13,093 nucleotides of DNA, taken from Akkermansia sp. GTDB taxonomy: Bacteria; Verrucomicrobiota; Verrucomicrobiia; Verrucomicrobiales; Akkermansiaceae. Below, in pieces: positions 1,597 to 13,093 of the stretch (positions are counted from its first letter, which is position 1; every line of letters begins with the position of its first letter). Location: NCBI GenBank assembly GCA_020047775.1, contig JAIFNK010000314.1:1-13093 (forward strand). The letters are read 5' to 3'. The translations under genes and the position numbers were made by a program. The notes below the pieces were generated by a model. That model saw only the letters and a program-made list of their open reading frames with translations. It did not search any database and was not told the origin of the DNA.

Positions 1597-3687
1597 TCAA
1601 ATTTGAATCATACCAAGCGCATCCTCCCTCACTCGTATCCTGCCGCGTGCGGCGGCTGCGGCGAAACGCTCTGGCAGACAATCTGAGAACTTCAGGCCAT
1701 CCAGCCATTGCTTGGAAATGGGTAGCTGCCGCAGGGCGTCCGGGTCTGCCAGCAGACTCCGGATCGCAACCGTCACCCGCGAGGTGTCCGTCTCGTATGG
1801 GAACTTAAGGCTGAAGTCGTCGAATCGTGCCTCGATGCCGGCGCTGGTCTCAAGCACAGAGGCGAATGCCTCGTTCAAAAAGCGGCCGGCGAAGTTCCAC
1901 CAGATCACATGATTCTCTGCCGGGTCGCTGACGCAGTTGGTGCTTTCCACTCCGAGAGCAAGATAGTCTCCACGCAGCGCTCCCATCCTTGTGCTACAGC
2001 GGTTCGACCAACGAGGTGAACTTTGCTCCGACAGCAGCACCGCCCCCACGCCACGCGCCATCTCGAAGGAGAGGCCTTGTCCCTGACCATACCAGCGGGC
2101 GCTGCCCTTGGCGGTGGTTGGGGTGACGAAGACCTTGCGGCCAGTGAAATCGATGTCCCGGATGTCCCAGGCTCGTCCGCTTAGGATCAGTGGGCGGCGC
2201 TCCTTTCCTTCCTCCACCGCCACGGTAAGCCAGTCCACCATGCCGATGCTGTTGACGCCGTGTACGACTTCGAACAACGGCGGCGAGGTGAACACCGACA
2301 CGAGTTCGAGGAAATGGCGACGCCCGAAGCGCTTCTCGCCTTCGTCGCCCATTGAGAGCAGGACGCCGTCCGAAAACAGAATCTCCGAGTCGATCAGGTG
2401 CTGGATCAGGATTGCGACTTCTTCGGGCGGCAGGTTCGAAAAGGCCGGGAAGTTCCCCAACCAATCCCGCCAGCCATCCACCCGGATTCCACCGGTCTGA
2501 AGCGTCAGGGCGAGAAGCTGTTGGACGAAGAGGTGATAGGGATCACGCGGTGCGATGATGGGTTCGACGAATCCTTCCTCCCAAAGTTTCACCAGAGCGG
2601 TCGCATGCAGAAGCGCGTTGTCCGATGTCGTCAGGAAGAGGCAGTTCCGTGAGGAGCCTGGCCGGCGACCGGTGCGGCCGATCCGCTGCAAGAAGGACGC
2701 CACCGTGCCCGGCGCATCGATCTGAATGACGCGATCGAGATCACCCACGTCGATGCCAAGTTCCAATGTGCTGGTCGCAACAATCACGCAGTTGGAGTCC
2801 GAGCTGAAAGCTGCCTCCGCTTCGCGCCGCTGTTCGGCGCTGAGCGAGCTGTGGGAAACGAAGGTGCTGATGCCACGCTCCCGCAGCATCACGGCCAGTT
2901 CCTCGACGCGCCGCCGGCTATCGCAAAAAACGAGTCGCTTCTCACCCTCGTGAAGTTGGCTGATCACGTGGGCGGCGTTCTCCAGAGTGCCGACGTAATC
3001 GACGCAGACGTTCGCCGCAACACTGGCAGCCTCCACTGAAATAACGCGCCGTTCACCGCTGCAATGACCCGCGAGCCAGTCGATCAATGAATCCGGGTTA
3101 CCAACGGTCGCAGACAGGCCGATACGCTGGAACTCTCTCCCTGCCAGCCGCTGGATCCGCTCGACGACTGCGAGCAGGTGAAGCCCTCGGTCATCCCCGG
3201 CGAAGGCGTGGATCTCATCAATCACCACCATCCGCACATTCACCAGCAGCTCACGCAGTTCCCGTCGGCTTGAAATCATCATCACCTCCAGTGACTCCGG
3301 CGTGGTCAACAGGCAGGCTGGCTTCTTCGCTTCGATGATCTTGCGGTCCTTCGTCGGGACATCCCCATGCCAGAGGCCGACCTCGTGGCCGACCATGCCG
3401 AAGTAAGTTTCCAGCCGTTCATGCAGGTTGTTGAGCAGCGCCTTGAGCGGGCACAGATAGAGGATCGCGGTACCGTCCCAGTTCTCGGTGAGCAGCCGGG
3501 AAATGGCAGGCAACACGGCGGCTTCCGTTTTTCCGCCAGCAGTGGGGGCGATGACGAGTGCGTGCTCGCCCGCTAGGATCGGCACGGCAGCCAATTCCTG
3601 GAGCGGCCTAAGACCCGGCCAGCCAAGGGTGTTAACCAGATGGTGCCGCAGCAACGGGTGAAACGAATCTGACGCGCGCTCGTTCAC
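1597..3687 (-). CDS. brxHI: BrxHI-type BREX helicase (Lhr-like superfamily 2 DEAH/DEIH helicase)
   Basis: The 696-residue protein is an SF2 helicase with all main motifs: motif I APTAGGKT (47-54), motif II DEIH (157-160), motif III SAT (192-194), motif V TSTLELGIDVGD (305-316) and motif VI QRIGRTGRR (334-342). A Q-motif-like LRPLQ lies at 26-30. The order, the DEIH box and the GTVASFLQRIGRTGRR context resemble the Lhr core. The C-terminal half (about 350-696) would hold the winged-helix and core extension, without the very long C-terminal part of full-length Lhr. Lhr-like BrxHI is the helicase associated with type 2 BREX and presumably acts on DNA by ATP-driven translocation; its precise role there is not known to me. 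The GTG start at 3687 forms a GTGA overlap with the brxD stop, which supports this start and suggests translational coupling. It is the last gene of the operon. Confidence 0.88.
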   Translation of the reverse strand: MNERASDSFHPLLRHHLVNTLGWPGLRPLQELAAVPILAGEHALVIAPTAGGKTEAAVLPAISRLLTENWDGTAILYLCPLKALLNNLHERLETYFGMVGHEVGLWHGDVPTKDRKIIEAKKPACLLTTPESLEVMMISSRRELRELLVNVRMVVIDEIHAFAGDDRGLHLLAVVERIQRLAGREFQRIGLSATVGNPDSLIDWLAGHCSGERRVISVEAASVAANVCVDYVGTLENAAHVISQLHEGEKRLVFCDSRRRVEELAVMLRERGISTFVSHSSLSAEQRREAEAAFSSDSNCVIVATSTLELGIDVGDLDRVIQIDAPGTVASFLQRIGRTGRRPGSSRNCLFLTTSDNALLHATALVKLWEEGFVEPIIAPRDPYHLFVQQLLALTLQTGGIRVDGWRDWLGNFPAFSNLPPEEVAILIQHLIDSEILFSDGVLLSMGDEGEKRFGRRHFLELVSVFTSPPLFEVVHGVNSIGMVDWLTVAVEEGKERRPLILSGRAWDIRDIDFTGRKVFVTPTTAKGSARWYGQGQGLSFEMARGVGAVLLSEQSSPRWSNRCSTRMGALRGDYLALGVESTNCVSDPAENHVIWWNFAGRFLNEAFASVLETSAGIEARFDDFSLKFPYETDTSRVTVAIRSLLADPDALRQLPISKQWLDGLKFSDCLPERFAAAAARGRIRVREDALGMIQI

Positions 3688-5003
3688 AGATCGAGCTGGA
3701 TTTCATCCGGAGAGACCGCACCGATGGCCGAGCGCTCCGCATCGTTGAGTTCTTCGCCAGTGATCACTGGCTGATAGTGTTCGAGCGGATTGAAGTCTTT
3801 GTGAAGTTCCACCACATCGAGCAGTTCACTGACGAGTTTCTTAAGGAAGATCCGGGGAGCCAAGCCGACCTCGCCACCCAAACGACCGGCGATCCCGGAG
3901 GCCAGGGATGAAATGACGGAATCGTCCACCTTCGCACTTACTCGCTCACCATCCGCCAGACCCGACACAAAAATGTTTCTGACCTTCCGCCCGACTTCCA
4001 CCAGCGATTCATGCTTGAAGGGCATCAGCCGGATCTGCGGCGCTCGTGGATTATCGAAGCGATTGTCCGGCTGAAATTCCGTCGCCAGTCGCTGGGCGAG
4101 CGGTTGCGATTTTTTCACCCCCTGAGGCCCATCGAAGAAGATCGGAGTTCCGGTGATGACCAGCATCAAGCCCGGGAAACGTCCTGAGTCCAGTTCATCA
4201 AGCAACTGGCGCAATGCATTCAGGCTCTTGTCCCGCACGTCCGAGCGCGCCCGCTGAAGGGTCTCCACTTCGTCGAGCACCAGCACCAGTCCGCCATTGC
4301 CGCTGTCGCGCAGGACCATCAGAAGCCCCTGAAGAAACGTGAGCGCGCTCTTGTGGTCGATCTCCCCCTTGACGCCCGCGACCCGTTTCACTTTCGCGGA
4401 CACGTTAGGCTGGCCGCCCAGCCATGCGATCAACCCTTCAGCCGTTTCGGTGTCGCCCTCGGCGAGAGCGCGGCGGTAGGCACGCAGGACGGCCGAAAAC
4501 GCCGGTGCAGTCCGAGCCACCTCGCCGAGACGCTTCTCCATCAACTTGTCAGTTTCTACGAGCAGGTCATTCTCAGACGTTGCACCGGCGGCGATCACAT
4601 CCTCCTCCAACGAGTAGAACCAACTGTCAATGACTTCACGAAACGCACCCTCCCGAGTGCCTGATAGATTCAATCGTTCGATAAGCCGGCGATAGACGGT
4701 TTCCAGCCGATGCAGCGGCGTTTCGGTTTCCGAAATCTGCACCTCCGCCGCCGCGAAATTCCTCTGCTTTGCACGCTCTTGAATCCAGCGCGAGAAGAAG
4801 GTCTTGCCGCAACCGTAGTCGCCGCGGATCGCCTTGAAGGCGGCGTTCCCCGTCTCCACATGATCGAGCATTTCATCAACCGTCGTCTCGAAGCCATTCA
4901 GTCCGACTGCCAGTTCGTCCAAGCCACGACGAGGTACGGTGCCCCGGCGGAGGGCTTCGAGGATTTCTTTCCGCTTTTGCGCGCTGATTACCGGTGCATC
5001 CAT
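3684..5003 (-). CDS. brxD: BrxD-type BREX ATP-binding protein (AAA/ORC-like P-loop ATPase)
   Basis: The 439-residue protein has a Walker A motif GDYGCGKTF (61-69) and a Walker B motif LVLVLDEVETLQ (239-250, acidic pair Asp244-Glu245). The sensor-like strand LVITGTPIFFDGP follows (281-293). The N-terminus, with the GTVPRRGLDELAVGL segment before the P-loop, and the overall length fit the family annotated as BREX system ATP-binding protein BrxD, an ORC/Cdc6-like AAA group found in type 2 BREX beside brxHI. The residues after about 320 (QIRLMPFK onwards) would be the lid and a helical C-terminal region. No membrane segment is seen. Its ATG overlaps the pglZ stop by one base (TGATG, 5001-5005) and its stop overlaps the brxHI start, so it is embedded in the operon. 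The role in defence is unknown; ATP-dependent DNA or partner loading is an inference from the fold. Confidence 0.88.
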   Translation of the reverse strand: MDAPVISAQKRKEILEALRRGTVPRRGLDELAVGLNGFETTVDEMLDHVETGNAAFKAIRGDYGCGKTFFSRWIQERAKQRNFAAAEVQISETETPLHRLETVYRRLIERLNLSGTREGAFREVIDSWFYSLEEDVIAAGATSENDLLVETDKLMEKRLGEVARTAPAFSAVLRAYRRALAEGDTETAEGLIAWLGGQPNVSAKVKRVAGVKGEIDHKSALTFLQGLLMVLRDSGNGGLVLVLDEVETLQRARSDVRDKSLNALRQLLDELDSGRFPGLMLVITGTPIFFDGPQGVKKSQPLAQRLATEFQPDNRFDNPRAPQIRLMPFKHESLVEVGRKVRNIFVSGLADGERVSAKVDDSVISSLASGIAGRLGGEVGLAPRIFLKKLVSELLDVVELHKDFNPLEHYQPVITGEELNDAERSAIGAVSPDEIQLDL

Positions 5004-7708
5004 CAGAGTTTGAGTTGAAATTGGCTGGCGAGCAGTTTGCGGTTCAGACGGACCGTGTCGGAGTCCCTGTCGATTTCGAGAATCTCATAACTGTCCACAT
5101 TGGTGAAGCGGGCCACCCGTGACAGGACACCTTGCATCCGGAGCGACTGTTCACCGATTGCCTGGGCCAACGCACCCATCAGCAACGTGCCGCCATTGGC
5201 GTCGAGGGCCGACAGGACCTTCCTCATGTGATCCTTGTTCGGTGCTGCCCGGCCAAGCAGGCGGTCCTGTTCCGCATAGACATCGGACTTCAGGAACTCC
5301 GCCATCCAAGCCGGCTCACCGGGAGATTCGACAGCCGGGACAAGCGGCTCATCAAACAACGGCAGCTCATCGACATTCGTGACGGGCTTCTTCTTCGGCT
5401 TGAGTTTGAGGGGTGTAGGAGGCGCGGCCTTGACAGTGCCATCGCCAAGAAAGACCCGCTGCCAGTTCCACCAGTCAGGTTGTGGTGCGTCCACGGCTTC
5501 GTAGCCCTCGATCTCATCCTCGGGCGCGGCGAACACCGCCAGTGGGATCAACACTTCCAAATCGCAAGCGCCACCATGATAGCCGGCCGACTTCGGGCCA
5601 TAACGCAGGGTTTCGGTGATCGGTAGAATGACCGACGGCGCACCGATTGCGGCCTCGACTCTCGACCCGGAAAACTTCCGCTCGCCCTCGTCGCTGACCT
5701 CGCCATGGCGGAAGCGCGCCTCCCCTTCGGATTGGCGCTCGATCATCTTGGTGTTCTCCATCTCCGGGATGTGACCGTGATCGCTCGTCAGGACAATCAG
5801 GCGCTTACCCTGGTCCGCCGCTTCAAGAATCGCGGGCAGGATCCCGATGTCCTGCACCTTCCAGTCGAGCGATAGCTGCCCGCCGGTTTTCAGTTGGTCG
5901 TCGATGGCGTTGAGCACCACCGCGACCACCCGGTGTTCGCTACCTGCGAGTGCATCGCGCACCTTGATCGACAAGCCACTGCTGTCCCCGGATCCAAGAT
6001 CGCCCTTGGTAAAGAGCAGCGGCTTGCCCTTGCTGCGGACATTGGCCAAGTCGGCATGCTCACGGAACGCGACGGCCTCGGTATTGCGAATCCCCGCCTG
6101 CACCTTCCCTGAGAAAAGCGACCAGCGTGAGTGTTGGGTCACGCTCGGCAGCACGCTCATGACCCGTGTTGGAAATTCTTCTCCCACCCGCCGCTGAGCC
6201 GCCCAGCCTGATTGTTCGAGGCTGCGTCCCAGTTGGTGGAATGCGGGGAAATTCATGCCGTCCATCACCAGCAACAGCACCGGGCGCTGGGAGGCCAGTG
6301 GTTCCACACATTTGGCGACGACGTCCTCGATGGGGATCAGCCCTTTGCCGCCGCTCTCATTGTCGCAGTGCCAGTGGCAAACGCGCTCGCCGAAGTCGAC
6401 TTGGGCTTCGATGCGGGCCTTCGCCATCCGCCGGACCAGCCGTCCATACACTTCCGCGACCTCGGGAAGCGGATCACCCCACGACAGGGAAAACCTCGCC
6501 CAGTCGATGAACGAATCATTCGCCGCGAACTCCCGGGCGGCATCGTTCAGACCGGTCGCCCGTTTCCGCTGAGGTGCGAAGTTCGCTTCGTAGCCGGCCA
6601 GGCGCGCCGCCATCTCCGCCCGTGCAAGCCTGACGGTGTGGAGCTGGGCCAGCGCGTGGTTTTGAAGCTGGCGCAAGCTGTTGAAAACCGCCCGGCTTCC
6701 GGTTTCCCACTTCCGCTTGCCGAGGCGGTCGATGTCATCAGCGAAGCCCAGCCAGCGGTCCTTGAAGCCTTGTCTCGAATAACCGAAGGCAGATGCGAGA
6801 GGCAGCGCCCGGATACCTTCCAAAATAGCATCCACCTGCGCCGCAATGCGGTCGCGCTCCTCGGACTGGCGCTTGTCCAGCACCTCCCGGGCCGCATGAC
6901 TCCACGTCGCCGCCTCGGTGGGTTTTAGGGATTTGCCGTTCAGATAGTTTTCCACACGCACCCGGGCATCCGCTGCGCCGTCCGTTTGATCCAGGCGCTC
7001 GTGAAACAAATCGCCAACAACAAGCCCCAACGGCAGATAGAGATTCGTCTGGTCTGTGGTGAAAAGGCTCTCCAGACACCCCGCCACCTCACCGGCGCGT
7101 TCCCCGACCCAGTCGAAAAACGAAGGCACCAAATTCTTCTCCAACGCCTCCACCGCCGCCCAGCGCTCCGTATCCAGGCTCCAGCGCAGAATCTCCACCA
7201 GATCCGGCCGTTGGTTCATCAGGTCCGGTTGGCGCAGGATCACACTCCAGGCGAAGTCCAGATCCAAGGTGCCACCGGGGGCCTTGCGCCCGGTGCCGCC
7301 TGATCCCGCCATCACCAGCGCTTCCAGCAGCGCGTCGTCATTGGAGATTCTCGGATCAATGGCAGTGGCCTGATAGATCTCCTTCAGCACCTCCCGCGGA
7401 TCGAGCGTGTGGACCGTTTTCCCGGCGAAGCGCGCCCGCACGTCCTCACCGATCCGGTCCTCATCCGTCCGCATCAACAGCAGCAGCCCATGTCCATCCT
7501 GAGTGGTCAGGTCGAGCATGAGGTCTCTGGCTTCCAGATCGGAGCGGCAGTCCGCCACCTTCACGGCCAGACCACCGCAAATGATCTCAGGCGCACCGAC
7601 GTAGGGGAAGTCCGTCCGGATCGCGAACACGCGTTCCGATTCCCAACCCCTACGGCCACGCCACCGGTCGATCTGCGCCTTCAACTGTTCTGGGATCAAA
7701 CTTGGCAT
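5003..7708 (-). CDS. pglZ: PglZ, BREX alkaline-phosphatase-superfamily protein
   Basis: PglZ is a core component of all BREX/Pgl systems and carries an alkaline-phosphatase-like domain whose substrate is not established. With the start chosen here the protein has 901 residues. The phosphatase domain spans about 470-735 and shows the metal and active-site motifs: VLLLVMDGM (Asp483), LPSVTQHSRWSLFSGK (520-535, candidate nucleophile Thr524), VVLNAIDDQ (Asp603-Asp604), VLTSDHGHIPE (Asp643, His644, His646) and YHGGACDLEVLIPL (His711). The region before it (1-460) is largely helical. After it come a Lys/Pro-rich linker (about 761-778) and a C-terminal domain (about 800-901) that looks like a winged helix. 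The frame stays open upstream to 7945, but those 79 codons overlap the end of pglY and read as basic junk. ATG 7708, giving MPSLIPEQLK, lies 8 nt after the pglY stop and is the sensible start. No Shine-Dalgarno is visible; coupling to pglY is likely. Confidence 0.92.
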   Translation of the reverse strand: MPSLIPEQLKAQIDRWRGRRGWESERVFAIRTDFPYVGAPEIICGGLAVKVADCRSDLEARDLMLDLTTQDGHGLLLLMRTDEDRIGEDVRARFAGKTVHTLDPREVLKEIYQATAIDPRISNDDALLEALVMAGSGGTGRKAPGGTLDLDFAWSVILRQPDLMNQRPDLVEILRWSLDTERWAAVEALEKNLVPSFFDWVGERAGEVAGCLESLFTTDQTNLYLPLGLVVGDLFHERLDQTDGAADARVRVENYLNGKSLKPTEAATWSHAAREVLDKRQSEERDRIAAQVDAILEGIRALPLASAFGYSRQGFKDRWLGFADDIDRLGKRKWETGSRAVFNSLRQLQNHALAQLHTVRLARAEMAARLAGYEANFAPQRKRATGLNDAAREFAANDSFIDWARFSLSWGDPLPEVAEVYGRLVRRMAKARIEAQVDFGERVCHWHCDNESGGKGLIPIEDVVAKCVEPLASQRPVLLLVMDGMNFPAFHQLGRSLEQSGWAAQRRVGEEFPTRVMSVLPSVTQHSRWSLFSGKVQAGIRNTEAVAFREHADLANVRSKGKPLLFTKGDLGSGDSSGLSIKVRDALAGSEHRVVAVVLNAIDDQLKTGGQLSLDWKVQDIGILPAILEAADQGKRLIVLTSDHGHIPEMENTKMIERQSEGEARFRHGEVSDEGERKFSGSRVEAAIGAPSVILPITETLRYGPKSAGYHGGACDLEVLIPLAVFAAPEDEIEGYEAVDAPQPDWWNWQRVFLGDGTVKAAPPTPLKLKPKKKPVTNVDELPLFDEPLVPAVESPGEPAWMAEFLKSDVYAEQDRLLGRAAPNKDHMRKVLSALDANGGTLLMGALAQAIGEQSLRMQGVLSRVARFTNVDSYEILEIDRDSDTVRLNRKLLASQFQLKL

Positions 7709-7716
7709 CGTATTGT

Positions 7717-10700
7717 CTATCCGTTGTGGTCCGCCTTCACCGTGATCTTGCGCTCGATGCCCATGCTTGGAATCGATAGCAAGCCAGCCTTCAAGTCGAG
7801 CTTGGCATCGGCACAAGCATGCATCAGCGCGTGCAGGGTGGGAGTGAGCACGATCATGTTCGAGCGTTCGTCCTCGCCACCGGTGCCAAGAGGATCGATG
7901 TGGTGAACCTCTAGCAGCAGTTCCACAAGCGAAGCGGGCACCCATTCAGGCAAGTCGTCACCCTCCACCTGGCTCGTCTGATAGAGCGACTTCAGCTCGC
8001 GCACCATCTTCCGGTTGCGTTCCAGGGCGGCGGTGTCGTTGCCATACTTCCGCCGCACCTCATCTTCATCGGACCCGGCCCAGTTCCCTTTGGTCGCAGT
8101 CGGCGCTCCTCCACTCGGGGTATTGGGGACGAACACAGGAACCTCATCGGCTCCTTTTCCGGTTGGCGCGGGGGCGGGCGTCCCAGCTCCTTTGCTGCCC
8201 TGAATCTGCCGTTGCAGAATCGCCAGCGCCTTGATGTTGATCCGCTCCACCACCGGAGCGAGCGCGGCGACGTATTCGTTGAATCCCAGCGCTGCGAGCA
8301 GTTCGGCATCGAGTTTCTCCGCCTCTTCTTTCAGCGGCGAGTCCAGACCGAGCGCCAGGTCCAGCGTCTTGCGGTCGATCGGCAGCACGTGCAGCACTGA
8401 CTCAGTGCCCTTGATGCTGGTCGAGATCGCCTCGTTGGGCGAATCACTCACGAAACCTGCCAGCGCCTTGATCAGTGCGCACCCTTGGTTGGACTTGATC
8501 AGAGCGAGGAAACGCTGCGCCTCCTTGGCCGCGTTCAGGCGGTCGAAATCCTCATCCAGCCCCTGCCTGCTGGCCTCGGTGGCGAGCAGATTTACAAGTT
8601 GGCCCACCACCCTCTCATAAGTGGCGGCCTCATTCCCCACCTTCGTGCTGAAGTCATCCAGCGTCTGCGCCGTCATCAGCTTGGGCAGGCCCGCGAGGCC
8701 AAGCAGGGAGTCTTGGACAGTCCGCGCCTTGTCCCATTCTTCCTGCGTCGGCAGTTCCTGGGTCTTGAGCTTGCACTCCCCGGGCAGGTCTTTAAGCGAA
8801 ACCGGATACGGGCTTCCATTTACCGTAAATGAGCAGTTCAACTGCGCCGCGCAGGCGAGGATGATCAGGTTCTCCAGCATTGGCGGGATGCCCCAGCCGA
8901 TCCAGTTCCGCAGTTCCGAAACCTTCACACCATCCAACCCATCGGGAGCCTTGCGGCGGAAGTGATCTTTCCAGTGCTCGCCGGGCACGAAATACTGAGG
9001 TGCCATCTCGCCGAGTTTCAGCGGATTGGAGATCATCCGGATCATCTCACGCTGGCTTTTCTCCACCTCGACACGGCCTTCGCTCTGCTGGAGCGCGTCC
9101 AGGAACACATCAAGCACCCGCTGCACGAACGGAGCGGACAATTTCACGCTGTCGTCAAAATCCGGATGCTGCGGATACTGGCTGCTCATCGCCTGTTCCA
9201 GCAATTCGCTCATCGCCCCTTGCAGGTGGGTCGCGCCCGGGACGTGCAGTTGCAGGCCGGAGTCGAGGCTTTGGAAATGATCCACGCCATCCAAATTCCG
9301 CATTGTATCGATCACGCCGGTCTTGTCCTCCCGCAGGCCGTAGGCCGTCTGCAGGTGGGTGACCATGCGGTTGCGCAGCGCGTCGCGTTGATTGGTGAGG
9401 ATCGATTTGGCAGTGGTCTTGTCCTGCATCGAGAGATCGCTCACGTAGCCGTCAAAGGCATGCTCCGCGAGGATCGTTTCCAGCTTCACGAGTTTCCCGA
9501 GATCCTGGAGTGCCTGCTGGCTGAAGAACGAGGGCAACCACACCACGGTGCTGGTGGAGCCACGCTCTTCCCGATACTTCTGAAGCTGGGCACGGTCCGC
9601 CGAGGGTCCCTTGTTCGGATCCGCGTCGAGCGGATAGTCGATCACCAATTTCCATTCGCCTTCGTTGGCTTCCAACAGATCAAAATCCGCCTCCCAGACA
9701 TTCTTGAAGATCACCTTACAACGGCGGTCCGTGCCGCGCCAGCGGAAGCCGTGTTCCAGCCACAGCTTGTCCTCGCTGCGGAGTTCCAGTTGCTTGAAGA
9801 GGATCTCTTTCAAGCAGCGCAGGCGATTTCCGAAATTGTCCTGCGAGGCCGCCTTGTCGATGATGCCATCCACATCCACGCCTGTCAGTTGCAGGGAAAT
9901 GATCGGCGGCGTGCTTTCATCCACCTTGAGCTGTCCTACCCGGCCCGCCCATTCCCGGAACTTGCCTTCCGCGATGGATGCTTCCTGGCCCTTGATCCGG
10001 GTCTTGATCGTGCCGTGGTTGAGTGCGGAGAGTCGTGCAGGGGTCAGGCCGCGGAGCGTCTCCACCTCGGGCGCGAGGGCTGCTAACAAAACAGTCTTGA
10101 TCAGTCGGTCGTCGTTGCGGAGCGCCACCCGTTTCGGGTCGTCCATCGGCAATTCTTCAGCCGCTGCAAAGCTCAAGTCATGCGTCGCTTCCAGCATCGG
10201 CTTCAGGTTCTGCCGATAGAGCTTATCCGCCGTTTGGAAATGCTTCTTCATCTCGCTGCTGAAGGCATCGTCCCCCTTGGCGATCTGATCGTAGAGGTCA
10301 CCCACCGGCACCAACTCGCCGAGCTGCATCGTATCGCGCTGGTCGACGAGAAGCTGAAGCAGTATGCGCAGGGCGGTGCGCTCCCGCTGGAGCAGTGAGG
10401 ACACCGCCACCAGCGTATCCACCAGCGCCGGGCTGAATGGATAGAGATTCCGCCAGGCCTCAGGATTCGAGTTGGCCGTCATCAGCACATCACGCACTTC
10501 CTGCCGGACCGCCACGGTTTCCTCGAACTTGGCGTCGATCTGCCTGCGGGCGTCCGCGTTGATAGGTTTAAGCAGACGCTCAGAGGCGATCTCGGGCAGG
10601 TTCGTATCGCCCATCTTGATGGTTTCGAATCGACCCTCGAAATACTTCAACTGGTCGAGGAAATTCAGGTTCGCGGCACCGGCCACGTTGTCGCCCACCA

Positions 10701-11631
10701 GCTCCCGCAGGTCCCGCTGCCGGGCGATGAAGCTGATGATCGGGATCGGCCGCCGCATCTCCTGGGCCTCCACCAGTTTCGCCAGCTTGTTCACTTCCTG
10801 GTTGAGGAAGTCCACACTGCCTGAGCGACTGGCCAGCCACAGGACGAGTTCGTCCAAGAACAGGATCACTCCGTCGTATTTGAGGTTCTTGGCGTGACGG
10901 CTCAGCGCGGCCAGTCCCTTGTCCAGGTCCAGGTATTCGCCATCTTGCCGCACCGAGGTGATCAGGTGCTGCACCAGATCACTCACCAGATCGCCGTGGC
11001 GGTCCGAGGTCGGATCCTCTGCGGCGGTCTCATAACTCTCCGCCGTCCAGCCACCGGAGAGCGAACCCCAACGGCTTCCCCCACCTTGGTCGCCCTGGTT
11101 CAGTGCTTTGAAAAACGCGTCATCTCCCATCTGCGTCCGCAGGCCGGAGGCATTTTCCAGAATCGCCTGGGAACGGAACAGCGGTGGCACTGGTGCATCC
11201 GGGTGATGCTCCGCCACCCAATCCACGTAGCCCTCGAAAATCTTATCCTCCAGCGATACCGCCCCGATCATGTGATAGGGCACCATCAGGAATTTTTTCC
11301 CTTGCAGCCATGCGTCGTGTTTTTTCACCACCGGTGCCAGCTTCGGCAGCGCCCGCGCCTCGTGATTCCCTTCCAGCAGCAGATCCAGCACCGCCATGAA
11401 GTGCGACTTGCCGGAGCCAAAACTCCCGTGTAAGTAGCTGCCCCGGCTCTTGTTCGAATCGATCGCCCCCTTGATGAAGCCCAGCGCGTCATCGAAGTTC
11501 TGGACCAGTTCCTTGGTGACCACGTAGGTCCCCAGCGTCGATCCCGGGTCTGCAACGCCGGCGGTGAGCTTCAGAACGAAGTCGTCCTTGTTGACGCGCT
11601 CTTGGATGTGGATGAGTTCTCGGATTAACAT
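7717..11631 (-). CDS. pglY: PglY, large BREX P-loop ATPase (BrxC/PglY family) with C-terminal HNH-like domain
   Basis: The 1304-residue protein has the size and layout of the PglY/BrxC ATPases of BREX. A P-loop lies early, LHGSFGSGKSHF (67-78, Lys75), and a Walker B strand GVILFLDELVLWLA (254-267, Asp260-Glu261) comes about 185 residues later. The spacing and the FGSGKSHF form are typical of the family. The long middle and C-terminal region is mostly helical and has no other motif that I recognise. From about 1145 to 1186 there is a linker rich in Pro, Gly, Ala and Thr. It is followed by an HNH-like domain (about 1215-1275) with LLEVHHIDPL (His1243-His1244), Asn1258 and His1267. In type 2 BREX, PglY acts with PglX, PglZ and PglW to mark host DNA and block phage; the ATPase presumably drives or licenses that complex. 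The ATG at 11631 is 21 nt after the preceding stop and has no clear Shine-Dalgarno. Confidence 0.9.
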   Translation of the reverse strand: MLIRELIHIQERVNKDDFVLKLTAGVADPGSTLGTYVVTKELVQNFDDALGFIKGAIDSNKSRGSYLHGSFGSGKSHFMAVLDLLLEGNHEARALPKLAPVVKKHDAWLQGKKFLMVPYHMIGAVSLEDKIFEGYVDWVAEHHPDAPVPPLFRSQAILENASGLRTQMGDDAFFKALNQGDQGGGSRWGSLSGGWTAESYETAAEDPTSDRHGDLVSDLVQHLITSVRQDGEYLDLDKGLAALSRHAKNLKYDGVILFLDELVLWLASRSGSVDFLNQEVNKLAKLVEAQEMRRPIPIISFIARQRDLRELVGDNVAGAANLNFLDQLKYFEGRFETIKMGDTNLPEIASERLLKPINADARRQIDAKFEETVAVRQEVRDVLMTANSNPEAWRNLYPFSPALVDTLVAVSSLLQRERTALRILLQLLVDQRDTMQLGELVPVGDLYDQIAKGDDAFSSEMKKHFQTADKLYRQNLKPMLEATHDLSFAAAEELPMDDPKRVALRNDDRLIKTVLLAALAPEVETLRGLTPARLSALNHGTIKTRIKGQEASIAEGKFREWAGRVGQLKVDESTPPIISLQLTGVDVDGIIDKAASQDNFGNRLRCLKEILFKQLELRSEDKLWLEHGFRWRGTDRRCKVIFKNVWEADFDLLEANEGEWKLVIDYPLDADPNKGPSADRAQLQKYREERGSTSTVVWLPSFFSQQALQDLGKLVKLETILAEHAFDGYVSDLSMQDKTTAKSILTNQRDALRNRMVTHLQTAYGLREDKTGVIDTMRNLDGVDHFQSLDSGLQLHVPGATHLQGAMSELLEQAMSSQYPQHPDFDDSVKLSAPFVQRVLDVFLDALQQSEGRVEVEKSQREMIRMISNPLKLGEMAPQYFVPGEHWKDHFRRKAPDGLDGVKVSELRNWIGWGIPPMLENLIILACAAQLNCSFTVNGSPYPVSLKDLPGECKLKTQELPTQEEWDKARTVQDSLLGLAGLPKLMTAQTLDDFSTKVGNEAATYERVVGQLVNLLATEASRQGLDEDFDRLNAAKEAQRFLALIKSNQGCALIKALAGFVSDSPNEAISTSIKGTESVLHVLPIDRKTLDLALGLDSPLKEEAEKLDAELLAALGFNEYVAALAPVVERINIKALAILQRQIQGSKGAGTPAPAPTGKGADEVPVFVPNTPSGGAPTATKGNWAGSDEDEVRRKYGNDTAALERNRKMVRELKSLYQTSQVEGDDLPEWVPASLVELLLEVHHIDPLGTGGEDERSNMIVLTPTLHALMHACADAKLDLKAGLLSIPSMGIERKITVKADHNG
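7807..7962 (-). other. HNH-like endonuclease domain at the C-terminus of PglY
   Basis: This segment encodes about residues 1224-1275 of PglY. The text LLEVHHIDPLGTGGEDERSN followed by MIVLTPTLHALMH aligns by eye with the McrA-like HNH pattern (I/L-E-V-H-H, P-L, G-G-x-D, N-L-I-x-L-x-P-x-x-H-x-x-x-H). The His pair (1243-1244), Asn1258 and His1267 sit where the HNH residues belong. The zinc-ribbon cysteines usual in this family are replaced: Ser1220 and Glu1223 stand where CxxC would be, and LTPTLH replaces LCPNCH. The fold call is good; whether the domain still cuts DNA is open. Confidence 0.7.
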
Positions 11632-11652
11632 GAGGAAAGTTATTGGGAAAAT

Positions 11653-12555
11653 CTATAGAGAATGATTTGGAGTCTGATTCGGAGGCACTGATCCATCGTT
11701 CTCTTTTGTCAATGGATCTGGATCGAGCGGGGGCTTGTCTTTTGGAATCAGCTCTGGCTGGGAATCAATACTTTCGCGCGGCACCTGCTCGTCTCCATTT
11801 GTCTCGTTTGGTTCCAGATCAGAATTTGGATCTGAAGTCTTGGATGTAGTCTCAGGTAGTGGTGGCGGAGTGGGAATGGTTTTGGTGCCGCTCTCGTCCA
11901 CAGCTTTCTCAACGGGAACGGGCGGGGGAATCAGAAAATACCCAATGGCACCCGCTACTAACACACCTGCCCCGATGATCAATTTTCCTCGCCCGGTAAA
12001 TGGCGGGACTTGGGCGGTTTCTTTCTTCGCAGGTTCTGGATCCAGCAACCGAATCATCCTTCCTGCGCCATCCATGCCCCAGTGACCGAAGCGGGAGTTT
12101 TCTTCGAGATCTTTCCGAAGCTGAGCCAGAGTGGAATTGGGTTCTGCATCAGGCCATCCACCTTCGAGAGGTTTCGTATTGAGGGGGAGTCCACGCTCCT
12201 TTTCAAAGTAAGCAAGCAGTCCGGCTACCTGAGGGTGGGTGATCCCGTCCAAAGATAAAAGCCGCACCAAGGCGAAAAAATACCTTCCTGGCCGGCCGTG
12301 CTCATCCCTTCCTGCCGGATAAACACGATAGAGCCAGACAAATTCAGAGTGTCGGATCACACCCAGCAAGACCGCCTGTTGATCCGTAAATACCCGCTGT
12401 TCGGCAGGCCAACCCTGATGGATGAGAGCTGCAGCGGCCTTCCAAGACTCGTCAAATCTCACATTTCCCCACTGCCAGTTGCTACGGGAAACCCCACGCG
12501 AAGTATCATAAACTCCAGCTTCAATCACTTCTGCGTTCTGTGGCGTGCTCATCAT
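11653..12555 (-). CDS. Single-pass membrane protein with unknown N-terminal domain and proline-rich acidic tail
   Basis: I do not recognise this 300-residue protein with certainty. Residues 10-185 form a soluble domain with aromatic-rich stretches (SNWQWGNVRFDESW, RHSEFVWLYRVYPAGRD) and a motif GRDEHGRPGRYFFALVRLL (82-100). That motif is reminiscent of the N-terminal domain of GTPase-associated (GAP1) proteins of bacterial conflict systems, a similarity seen by eye only. A membrane segment follows (about 192-209, LIIGAGVLVAGAIGYFLI), preceded by GRGK. The last 90 residues are rich in Pro, Asp, Glu, Asn and Thr and look disordered. Positive residues before the membrane segment suggest the N-terminal domain is cytoplasmic and the tail is outside. 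Two adjacent ATGs (12555 and 12552) could start it, 9 nt after the PLAT gene stop. It ends 21 nt before pglY, so it is probably in the same operon. GC content here is visibly lower than in the BREX core. Confidence 0.78.
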   Translation of the reverse strand: MMSTPQNAEVIEAGVYDTSRGVSRSNWQWGNVRFDESWKAAAALIHQGWPAEQRVFTDQQAVLLGVIRHSEFVWLYRVYPAGRDEHGRPGRYFFALVRLLSLDGITHPQVAGLLAYFEKERGLPLNTKPLEGGWPDAEPNSTLAQLRKDLEENSRFGHWGMDGAGRMIRLLDPEPAKKETAQVPPFTGRGKLIIGAGVLVAGAIGYFLIPPPVPVEKAVDESGTKTIPTPPPLPETTSKTSDPNSDLEPNETNGDEQVPRESIDSQPELIPKDKPPLDPDPLTKENDGSVPPNQTPNHSL

Positions 12556-12564
12556 GGGTCGATT

Positions 12565-13059
12565 TTACATTCTGGAGTCATCCGATGTCAGAGTCACTTC
12601 CCAAGGATCATTTCCCGGATTGGATGAATCCCTGCCCAACCAGCGGGAACATGAAAAAGTGCTCACCATGCCAGTATTCTTGTTTGTCACATGAACGCTC
12701 TCTAAAAACCAAGCGGGTTTGTCTCCCGTATCCGTAATTTTCACTGACACGGCTTTTATCTCGCCAAGAGGTATCATCCTTCGTTCGAAAATGTTCGCTT
12801 CACCGTTTTCAAATAGCTTCGGCATGAGCAGGCTTTCATTCAATCGACCGAGAGTGGCATGACTTACCCGGTCATCATTTCCTGTCAGACTGATGATTAC
12901 GGGAGAGTCCGTCCCGGCTCCAGGTCTGTCGCCAGTAACAAACTTGAGTTCATATTTATCAGTGGCCAGAAAGTAAAAGCCGAGTGACAAGAAAGTAAGA
13001 ACAACAAACACGACGAGTAGTCTTACCTTTCTTGGAAGTGAGCGTATCAGGCCAACCAT
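12565..13059 (-). CDS. Membrane-anchored PLAT/LH2-domain protein
   Basis: From the ATG at 13059 the protein has 164 residues. An N-terminal basic stretch (RSLPRKVR) and a membrane segment (about 13-32, LLVVFVVLTFLSLGFYFLA) form a signal anchor. The rest is a PLAT/LH2 beta-sandwich: YELKFVTGDRPGAGTDSPVIISLTG (36-60), a central LFENGEANIFE (82-92), IPLGEIKAVSVKITDTGDKPAWFLESVHV (96-124) and a closing FSCSRWLGRD (135-144). The TGDxxGAGTD start, the PxWFLESVxV strand and the C-x-x-W end are the hallmarks of the domain, which binds lipids or membrane partners in other proteins. The basic N-terminus implies that PLAT faces the periplasm. The frame stays open to a GTG at 13092 at the window edge, so a longer start, or one beyond the window, is possible. 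I prefer 13059 because the residues before it are a Gly/Ser-rich run and ATG 13059 places the anchor at the N-terminus. Confidence 0.8.
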   Translation of the reverse strand: MVGLIRSLPRKVRLLVVFVVLTFLSLGFYFLATDKYELKFVTGDRPGAGTDSPVIISLTGNDDRVSHATLGRLNESLLMPKLFENGEANIFERRMIPLGEIKAVSVKITDTGDKPAWFLESVHVTNKNTGMVSTFSCSRWLGRDSSNPGNDPWEVTLTSDDSRM

Positions 13060-13093
13060 TCCCGCCGAACCGCCTGATAGCCCGCGCTGCACG

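Follow-up and report, generated by a model that had tools for sequence, protein, structure and literature searches.

The window analyzed here, a 13,093-nucleotide stretch of an Akkermansia sp. contig (JAIFNK010000314.1, assembly GCA_020047775.1), encodes a type 2 bacteriophage exclusion (BREX) system whose PglY ATPase ends, after a variable linker, in an HNH domain. With somewhat better than even confidence, we favor the reading that this tail is a predicted metal-dependent DNA endonuclease, flexibly linked to a DNA-binding AAA+ scaffold, that probably also has a structural role. The original prediction, made from the letters of the window, had pointed to the motif EVHHIDPL..GG.D...N...L.P..H at the end of PglY and had placed an HNH domain at positions 7807-7962. 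The motif is there exactly as quoted, and the interval does cover the core of the domain (residues about 1224-1276), but the domain itself is larger, as the following coordinates indicate.

7717..11631, minus strand: pglY, a BrxC family AAA+ ATPase of type 2 BREX, an open reading frame (ORF) of 1304 amino acids with the C-terminal HNH tail
8074..8184, minus strand: variable linker, residues about 1150-1186, predicted to be disordered (predicted local distance difference test score, pLDDT, about 41-51)
7720..8073, minus strand: HNH tail domain, residues about 1187-1304, from the predicted structure, structural matches and 52/52 aligned tails
7981..8034, minus strand: N-terminal helix of the tail, LERNRKMVRELKSLY (residues about 1200-1217), also present in a stand-alone plasmid HNH protein
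7819..7911, minus strand: HNH core, residues 1241-1271, from the sequence, invariant columns and alignment with the HNH of EcoKMcrA
7903-7905, 7900-7902, 7858-7860, 7831-7833 and 7819-7821, minus strand: active-site residues H1243, H1244, N1258, H1267 and H1271, respectively

All five residues of the H-H-N-H-H active-site pattern are present in the window's PglY, and its residues 1180-1304 are matched by 50 other database proteins. Across 52 aligned tails (the window, the Verrucomicrobiaceae locus L006 and these 50 proteins), H1243, N1258, H1267 and H1271 are invariant and H1244 is conserved in at least 90%; the set is complete in 45 of the 50 matched proteins, the other five lacking H1244. 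When tails were scanned alone, 15 of 17 matched Pfam HNH at E <= 0.1 (best 2.8e-5), and a profile of the 17 found EcoKMcrA (E 1.5e-4), an HNH-fused Cas8f (1.1e-3) and ScoMcrA (2.6e-3) in the PDB. The predicted structure of residues 1190-1304 is confident (pLDDT block means of 77-98), and VIA-align matches it to HNH nucleases. For the window's tail, the prediction is a bba-metal HNH fold with the full active-site set. The C-terminal HNH domain that had been proposed is real, its linker-plus-HNH layout recurs, and the structure prediction suggested as a check gave the expected fold. A scan for promoters and terminators around the tail found nothing.

The McrA-type HNH restriction enzymes TagI, EcoKMcrA and ScoMcrA share this fold and residue pattern, while the PglY HNH differs in being attached to the AAA+ scaffold of a multi-protein system. 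The Type I-F HNH Cascade, in which HNH is fused to Cas8f, also joins the domain to a scaffold subunit of a defense complex, but as an RNA-guided CRISPR effector it is a parallel in architecture, not in membership. The nearest relatives are found on plasmids. Among 72,556 plasmid records searched with full-length PglY, 10 matched: seven through PglYs, and three Rhodobacterales plasmids that match only PglY residues 1203-1271. On the latter, an HNH protein of 373-377 residues adjoins D12-class and N6_Mtase/TaqI_C adenine methylases (domains scanned in the Paracoccus record). Two small Rhodobacterales plasmids carry what appears to be a restriction-modification module of a stand-alone HNH and two adenine methylases (L121:3715-7576 and L122:2224-6069). 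The stand-alone proteins (P0144, P0145) share with the tail a domain of roughly 110 residues, with 46% identity over 79 amino acids and the ERNRK..LK.LY helix included, and differ in having an N-terminal region of their own that has no Pfam match. A database search with the stand-alone protein lists 310 relatives; it matches EcoKMcrA at E 5.2e-9, and P0144 reaches 22.1 bits against Pfam HNH (cut-off 21.4). Of 122 proteins of this family examined, 120 could be aligned; the five residues are complete in 119, and the remaining one has Y for the final His. In this the family is unlike the PglY tails, in which the active site is intact in 56 of 138. Because these stand-alone relatives share the domain, the tail belongs to a restriction-type HNH family, and comparison of the sequences suggests that PglY captured it once from such a nuclease. 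A search of the phage collection gave no match to the tail.

How widely the tail is distributed has to be read against how the PglYs were collected. We compared 223: the window, 142 database proteins and 80 GTDB loci. Fifty of the proteins were chosen by their tail; 120 are the best 120 of 3416 by core similarity, 28 of them also among the 50; and the loci are the best 80 of 429 confirmed in a scan of genome contigs. An HNH-derived tail is present in 138 and absent from 75, with 10 not judged since they are truncated or off frame. As the set is biased, the 56 complete tails among the 138 are not a prevalence. The best 120 by core similarity comprise 35 complete, 4 lacking H1244, 75 degenerate, 2 tail-less and 4 not evaluable. 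Among the best 80 loci, 74 have a readable end, and 73 of these have no HNH tail, the sole carrier being L006. By eye, most tail-less PglYs from these loci finish with a short strand-helix-strand module behind a proline-rich linker, and profile comparison of this ordinary ending with the HNH tail found no similarity (probability at most 0.7, against 94.6 for a positive control). Draws of genomes around the window's own gave PglY matches in 4/387 (phylum), 5/260 (family), 8/384 (class) and 8/386 (order); the draws overlap and together hold 14 different genomes with a match. Seven of these, the window's genome included, encode a complete tail (G000, G327, G931, G506, G694, G734, G980), four a degenerate one by eye (G158, G271, G725, G586) and three only PglY fragments (G518, G840, G877). 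G931 is the assembly that holds L006 and belongs to the same order as the window's genome, and the few tail-bearing PglYs with a named source (P0041, L006 and the degenerate P0072, from a Chthoniobacter assembly) are all from Verrucomicrobiota.

In agreement with the original prediction, the tail is not a standard, already described part of type 2 PglY. The two type 2 PglY profiles both end at residue 1218, leaving nearly the whole tail beyond them; 73 of the 74 evaluable loci lack it; and no HNH in BrxC or PglY is described in the main-text passages of the literature searched, where HNH enzymes do appear as neighbors of BREX loci. The word HNH does not occur in the Streptomyces coelicolor Pgl paper (PMC4365076) or the BrxC paper. 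According to the BrxC section of a 2026 BREX survey, the protein has a coiled coil with a small strand-helix-strand subdomain at its end, and no HNH is mentioned there (PMC12839542). The window's PglY resembles the S. coelicolor type (NF047891, PDLC02488) in its AAA+ body and in sharing an operon with pglZ, brxD and brxHI, with pglW and pglX present in relatives, and departs from it in bearing an HNH domain after the linker where most have the short strand-helix-strand module. Core BREX components have acquired nuclease domains elsewhere, as in the BrxL-HKD and helicase-nuclease fusions that the survey reports from BREX and BREX-related systems, which involve another core protein and another nuclease superfamily (PMC12839542).

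The active site has been lost often. Among the 138 tails, 56 are H-H-N-H-H, 7 are H-[L/Q/V]-N-H-H and 75 have other residues. Profile comparison shows the complete and degenerate tails to be homologous (probabilities of 98.1-99.9), and for P0132, whose tail is degenerate, the predicted order of helix-strand-strand-helix-strand-strand-strand is the same (pLDDT block means 81-93, predicted template modeling score 0.49). On core trees, built without the tail columns, tail-bearing rows cluster in the FastTree tree with support of 99, with tail-less P0113 and P0123 inside; perhaps these two regained a short tail by recombination, or their placement is a tree artifact. A test on 37 rows and core columns did not reject all tail-bearing rows as a single clade (approximately unbiased test p-value, p-AU, 0.245, with only 3 rows outside). 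In the same alignment, a single loss was rejected: forcing the 19 degenerate rows into one clade costs 865 log-likelihood units (p-AU 6.4e-107). The degenerate tails do not form one clade. An undirected count of the degenerate label gives 4 changes on the 222-row FastTree tree and 3 on a 58-row tree, or 7 losses on the latter if regain of residues is excluded. To these, the seven tails changed only at H1244 add losses of their own, most of them recent. The deepest tail-bearing clades, of 6, 11 and 7 rows, are all complete.

Selection was estimated for four genes with complete tails, those of the window, L006, G327 and G506. Over their six pairings, the ratio of nonsynonymous to synonymous substitution rates (dN/dS) is 0.16-0.26 for the tail and 0.07-0.33 for the HNH core (38 codons), against 0.26-0.76 for the linker (residues 1140-1186) and 0.10-0.15 for residues 926-1130 of the PglY core. 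The tail is under purifying selection among these four related genes. Across complete tails, pairwise tail and core identity rise together (Spearman 0.60 over 63 rows, the pairs being non-independent), as expected of a tail that is inherited together with its core.

These observations suggest a mechanism, each step of which is conditional. A domain from a restriction-type nuclease would have been captured once by PglY, and would sit where other type 2 PglYs have their short C-terminal module. Once the BREX complex has turned to restriction of unmodified DNA, that DNA could be kept within reach of the HNH arm by the ATPase and its DNA-binding domains, and the arm could nick or cut it alongside the PglZ nuclease. 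Complete and degenerate tails alike may have a second, non-catalytic job, most likely self-association of PglY; HNH enzymes of the McrA type are generally dimers. A second job of this kind is suggested because the fold is kept in lineages that lack the active site, and self-association because type 1 BrxC dimerizes constitutively through its final 80 residues, whose removal does not impair DNA binding; BrxC binds DNA via its central domains and forms large DNA-dependent oligomers (PMC13326643). The original prediction had started from a BREX core without a dedicated nuclease, a view that is now outdated: type 1 PglZ is described as a metal-dependent nuclease contributing to defense (PMC12205998), and the window's PglZ keeps the motif residues compared. 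The HNH would therefore be an additional nuclease. A role in making up for a dead PglZ is ruled out, as the PglZ motif residues compared are kept in 10/10 loci, the window included (7 with complete and 3 with degenerate tails).

Several points weigh against a cutting tail in the window. One or more of the five active-site residues are missing from 82 of the 138 tails, and P0017, a near neighbor of L006, has H changed to L at the HH motif, which means that many relatives can do without the active site; and since the domain has been kept through these losses, cutting cannot be the sole reason for keeping it. The window's tail alone scores 18.8 bits, below the curated Pfam HNH cut-off of 21.4, and within the full-length protein the match is only E 0.028. 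Foldseek alone gave no match at E <= 0.001 (best 0.059, to ScoMcrA). Many HNH domains have a CxxC zinc-knuckle pattern, and none was seen by eye in the tail. The roles of the histidines, as general base or metal ligands, would be those of other HNH enzymes. The dimerization idea, in which the HNH replaces a BrxC-like end, is drawn from position and has no counterpart in sequence: for the final 85 residues of Escherichia fergusonii BrxC, the one BrxC sequence compared, hhalign found no profile similarity to either kind of PglY tail (probability 7.8 for ordinary tails, through the proline-rich linker only, and under 1 for HNH tails).

A bolder version joins the two roles. The HNH, captured once, would have replaced the ATPase's self-association module, and would now both join PglY subunits and cut the DNA that they ring; the cutting site would then have died repeatedly and the fold would have stayed. 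We put this forward tentatively, as something we would not bet on. It is rather unlikely that the tail is already non-catalytic here, with the HNH fold serving self-association or DNA contact and the complete residues being an inheritance that has not yet decayed. It is common in this clade for the active site to be lost and the fold kept, which speaks for such a state, as do the seven tails that lack H1244 only and are otherwise normal, and so does the use of the same protein end for dimerization in type 1 BrxC (PMC13326643). It is harder to reconcile with the three deep clades, which keep the complete set in 24/24 rows despite strongly diverged cores, or with the four close genes, which keep it at a dN/dS of 0.07-0.33 over 38 codons, unexpected for an idle site. 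Quite improbable, in our judgment, is an HNH acting as a last-resort effector on the cell's own DNA (abortive infection) or, in the manner of type IV enzymes, on modified phage DNA, instead of restricting unmodified phage DNA alongside PglZ. The enzymes it resembles in structure (TagI, EcoKMcrA and ScoMcrA) are, to go by titles, modification-dependent, the best PADLOC domain matches are to mREase_IV, and the NERD nuclease of PglW has been proposed, in the survey, as a suicidal backup in type 2 BREX (PMC12839542). Yet no modified-base reader is among the families listed for full-length PglY (Pfam at E up to 1 and PADLOC, both weak scans), and the closest relative has adenine methylase genes beside its own, like an ordinary restriction-modification pair. 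A chance motif, assembly join or frame error adding an HNH gene to pglY is a negligible prospect, for while the window comes from a metagenome assembly that is 57% complete and in 337 contigs, the fusion recurs in 50 other database proteins and in G327, G931, G506, G694, G734 and G980, with matches free of internal stops.

A cutting tail with a structural role would matter because which BREX component cuts DNA is only now being settled, with PglZ of type 1. An HNH domain built into a core BREX ATPase would make a clean test case for type 2, in which two histidines of PglY could be set against restriction and methylation. The complete, base-less and degenerate tails of close relatives form a natural series for separating a catalytic from a structural role. 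If the bolder version holds, a single nuclease, live in some type 2 BREX systems of this clade and dead in others, would be a structural component of their defense machinery.

The remainder of the locus places this PglY in its system.

11401..11427, minus strand: Walker A of the PglY ATPase, GSFGSGKSH, residues 69-77, from sequence and alignment
10846..10866, minus strand: Walker B of the PglY ATPase, ILFLDEL, residues 256-262, from sequence and alignment
5003..7708, minus strand: pglZ, type 2 (NCBIfam BREX_PglZ_2, NF033446, 651.6 bits against a cut-off of 200)
3684..5003, minus strand: brxD (NCBIfam BREX_BrxD, NF033438, 620.7 bits against a cut-off of 350)
1597..3687, minus strand: brxHI helicase (PADLOC BrxHI, E 5.6e-271)

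PglY itself matches PADLOC BrxC-PglY (PDLC02488) at 1304 bits and NCBIfam NF047891 (BREX-2 PglY) at 987 bits, both over residues 2-1218, the latter below its equivalog cut-off of 1700. Downstream of it lie pglZ, brxD and brxHI, in that order; the pglZ ORF as listed (5003-7945) is over-extended, and the ATG at 7708 is, by eye, the likelier start. The genome's pglW lies on another contig (G000:C181:390-4649), ending 389 bases from the contig end, and its product has Pkinase and NERD domains and 88% identity to the PglW of G327. A pglX search of the window's own genome, 57% complete as noted, returned only five weak partial matches (best E 9.8e-6), and the pglW and pglY contigs both break off at the expected position of pglX. 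That gene is found in G327, G931, G980 and others, and these three have all six BREX components together, with a PglY that bears a complete HNH tail. From pglY, pglZ, brxD and brxHI, plus pglW elsewhere in the genome, the window's system is a type 2 BREX.

Other genes accompany these loci. In the window, a PLAT-domain protein and a 300-amino-acid unknown protein precede pglY (11653-13092), and a convergent gene at 307-1557 on the plus strand encodes a 416-amino-acid protein that has only weak matches, with a SEC-C-like metal-binding motif at its end. The cargo between pglX and pglY differs among relatives (L006:7932-9989; L106:10298-11005; L107:6260-14745), and includes a MqsA-antitoxin-like helix-turn-helix protein, unknown proteins, and a TmtA-like protein of 1908 amino acids (sacsin match) with a SNF2-type helicase. 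Upstream of pglX, L006:2-1726 holds a possible accessory gene, whose Schlafen AlbA_2-like product carries a recG-C-terminal-like HATPase domain. A second site in the window's own genome, G000:C133:904-923 (L001), resembles the HNH-motif DNA with two mismatches to the pattern. In an Acidobacteriota assembly (L052, ORF 6082-12471), PglY is apparently fused in frame to PglZ, with a C terminus that is PglZ-like by eye.
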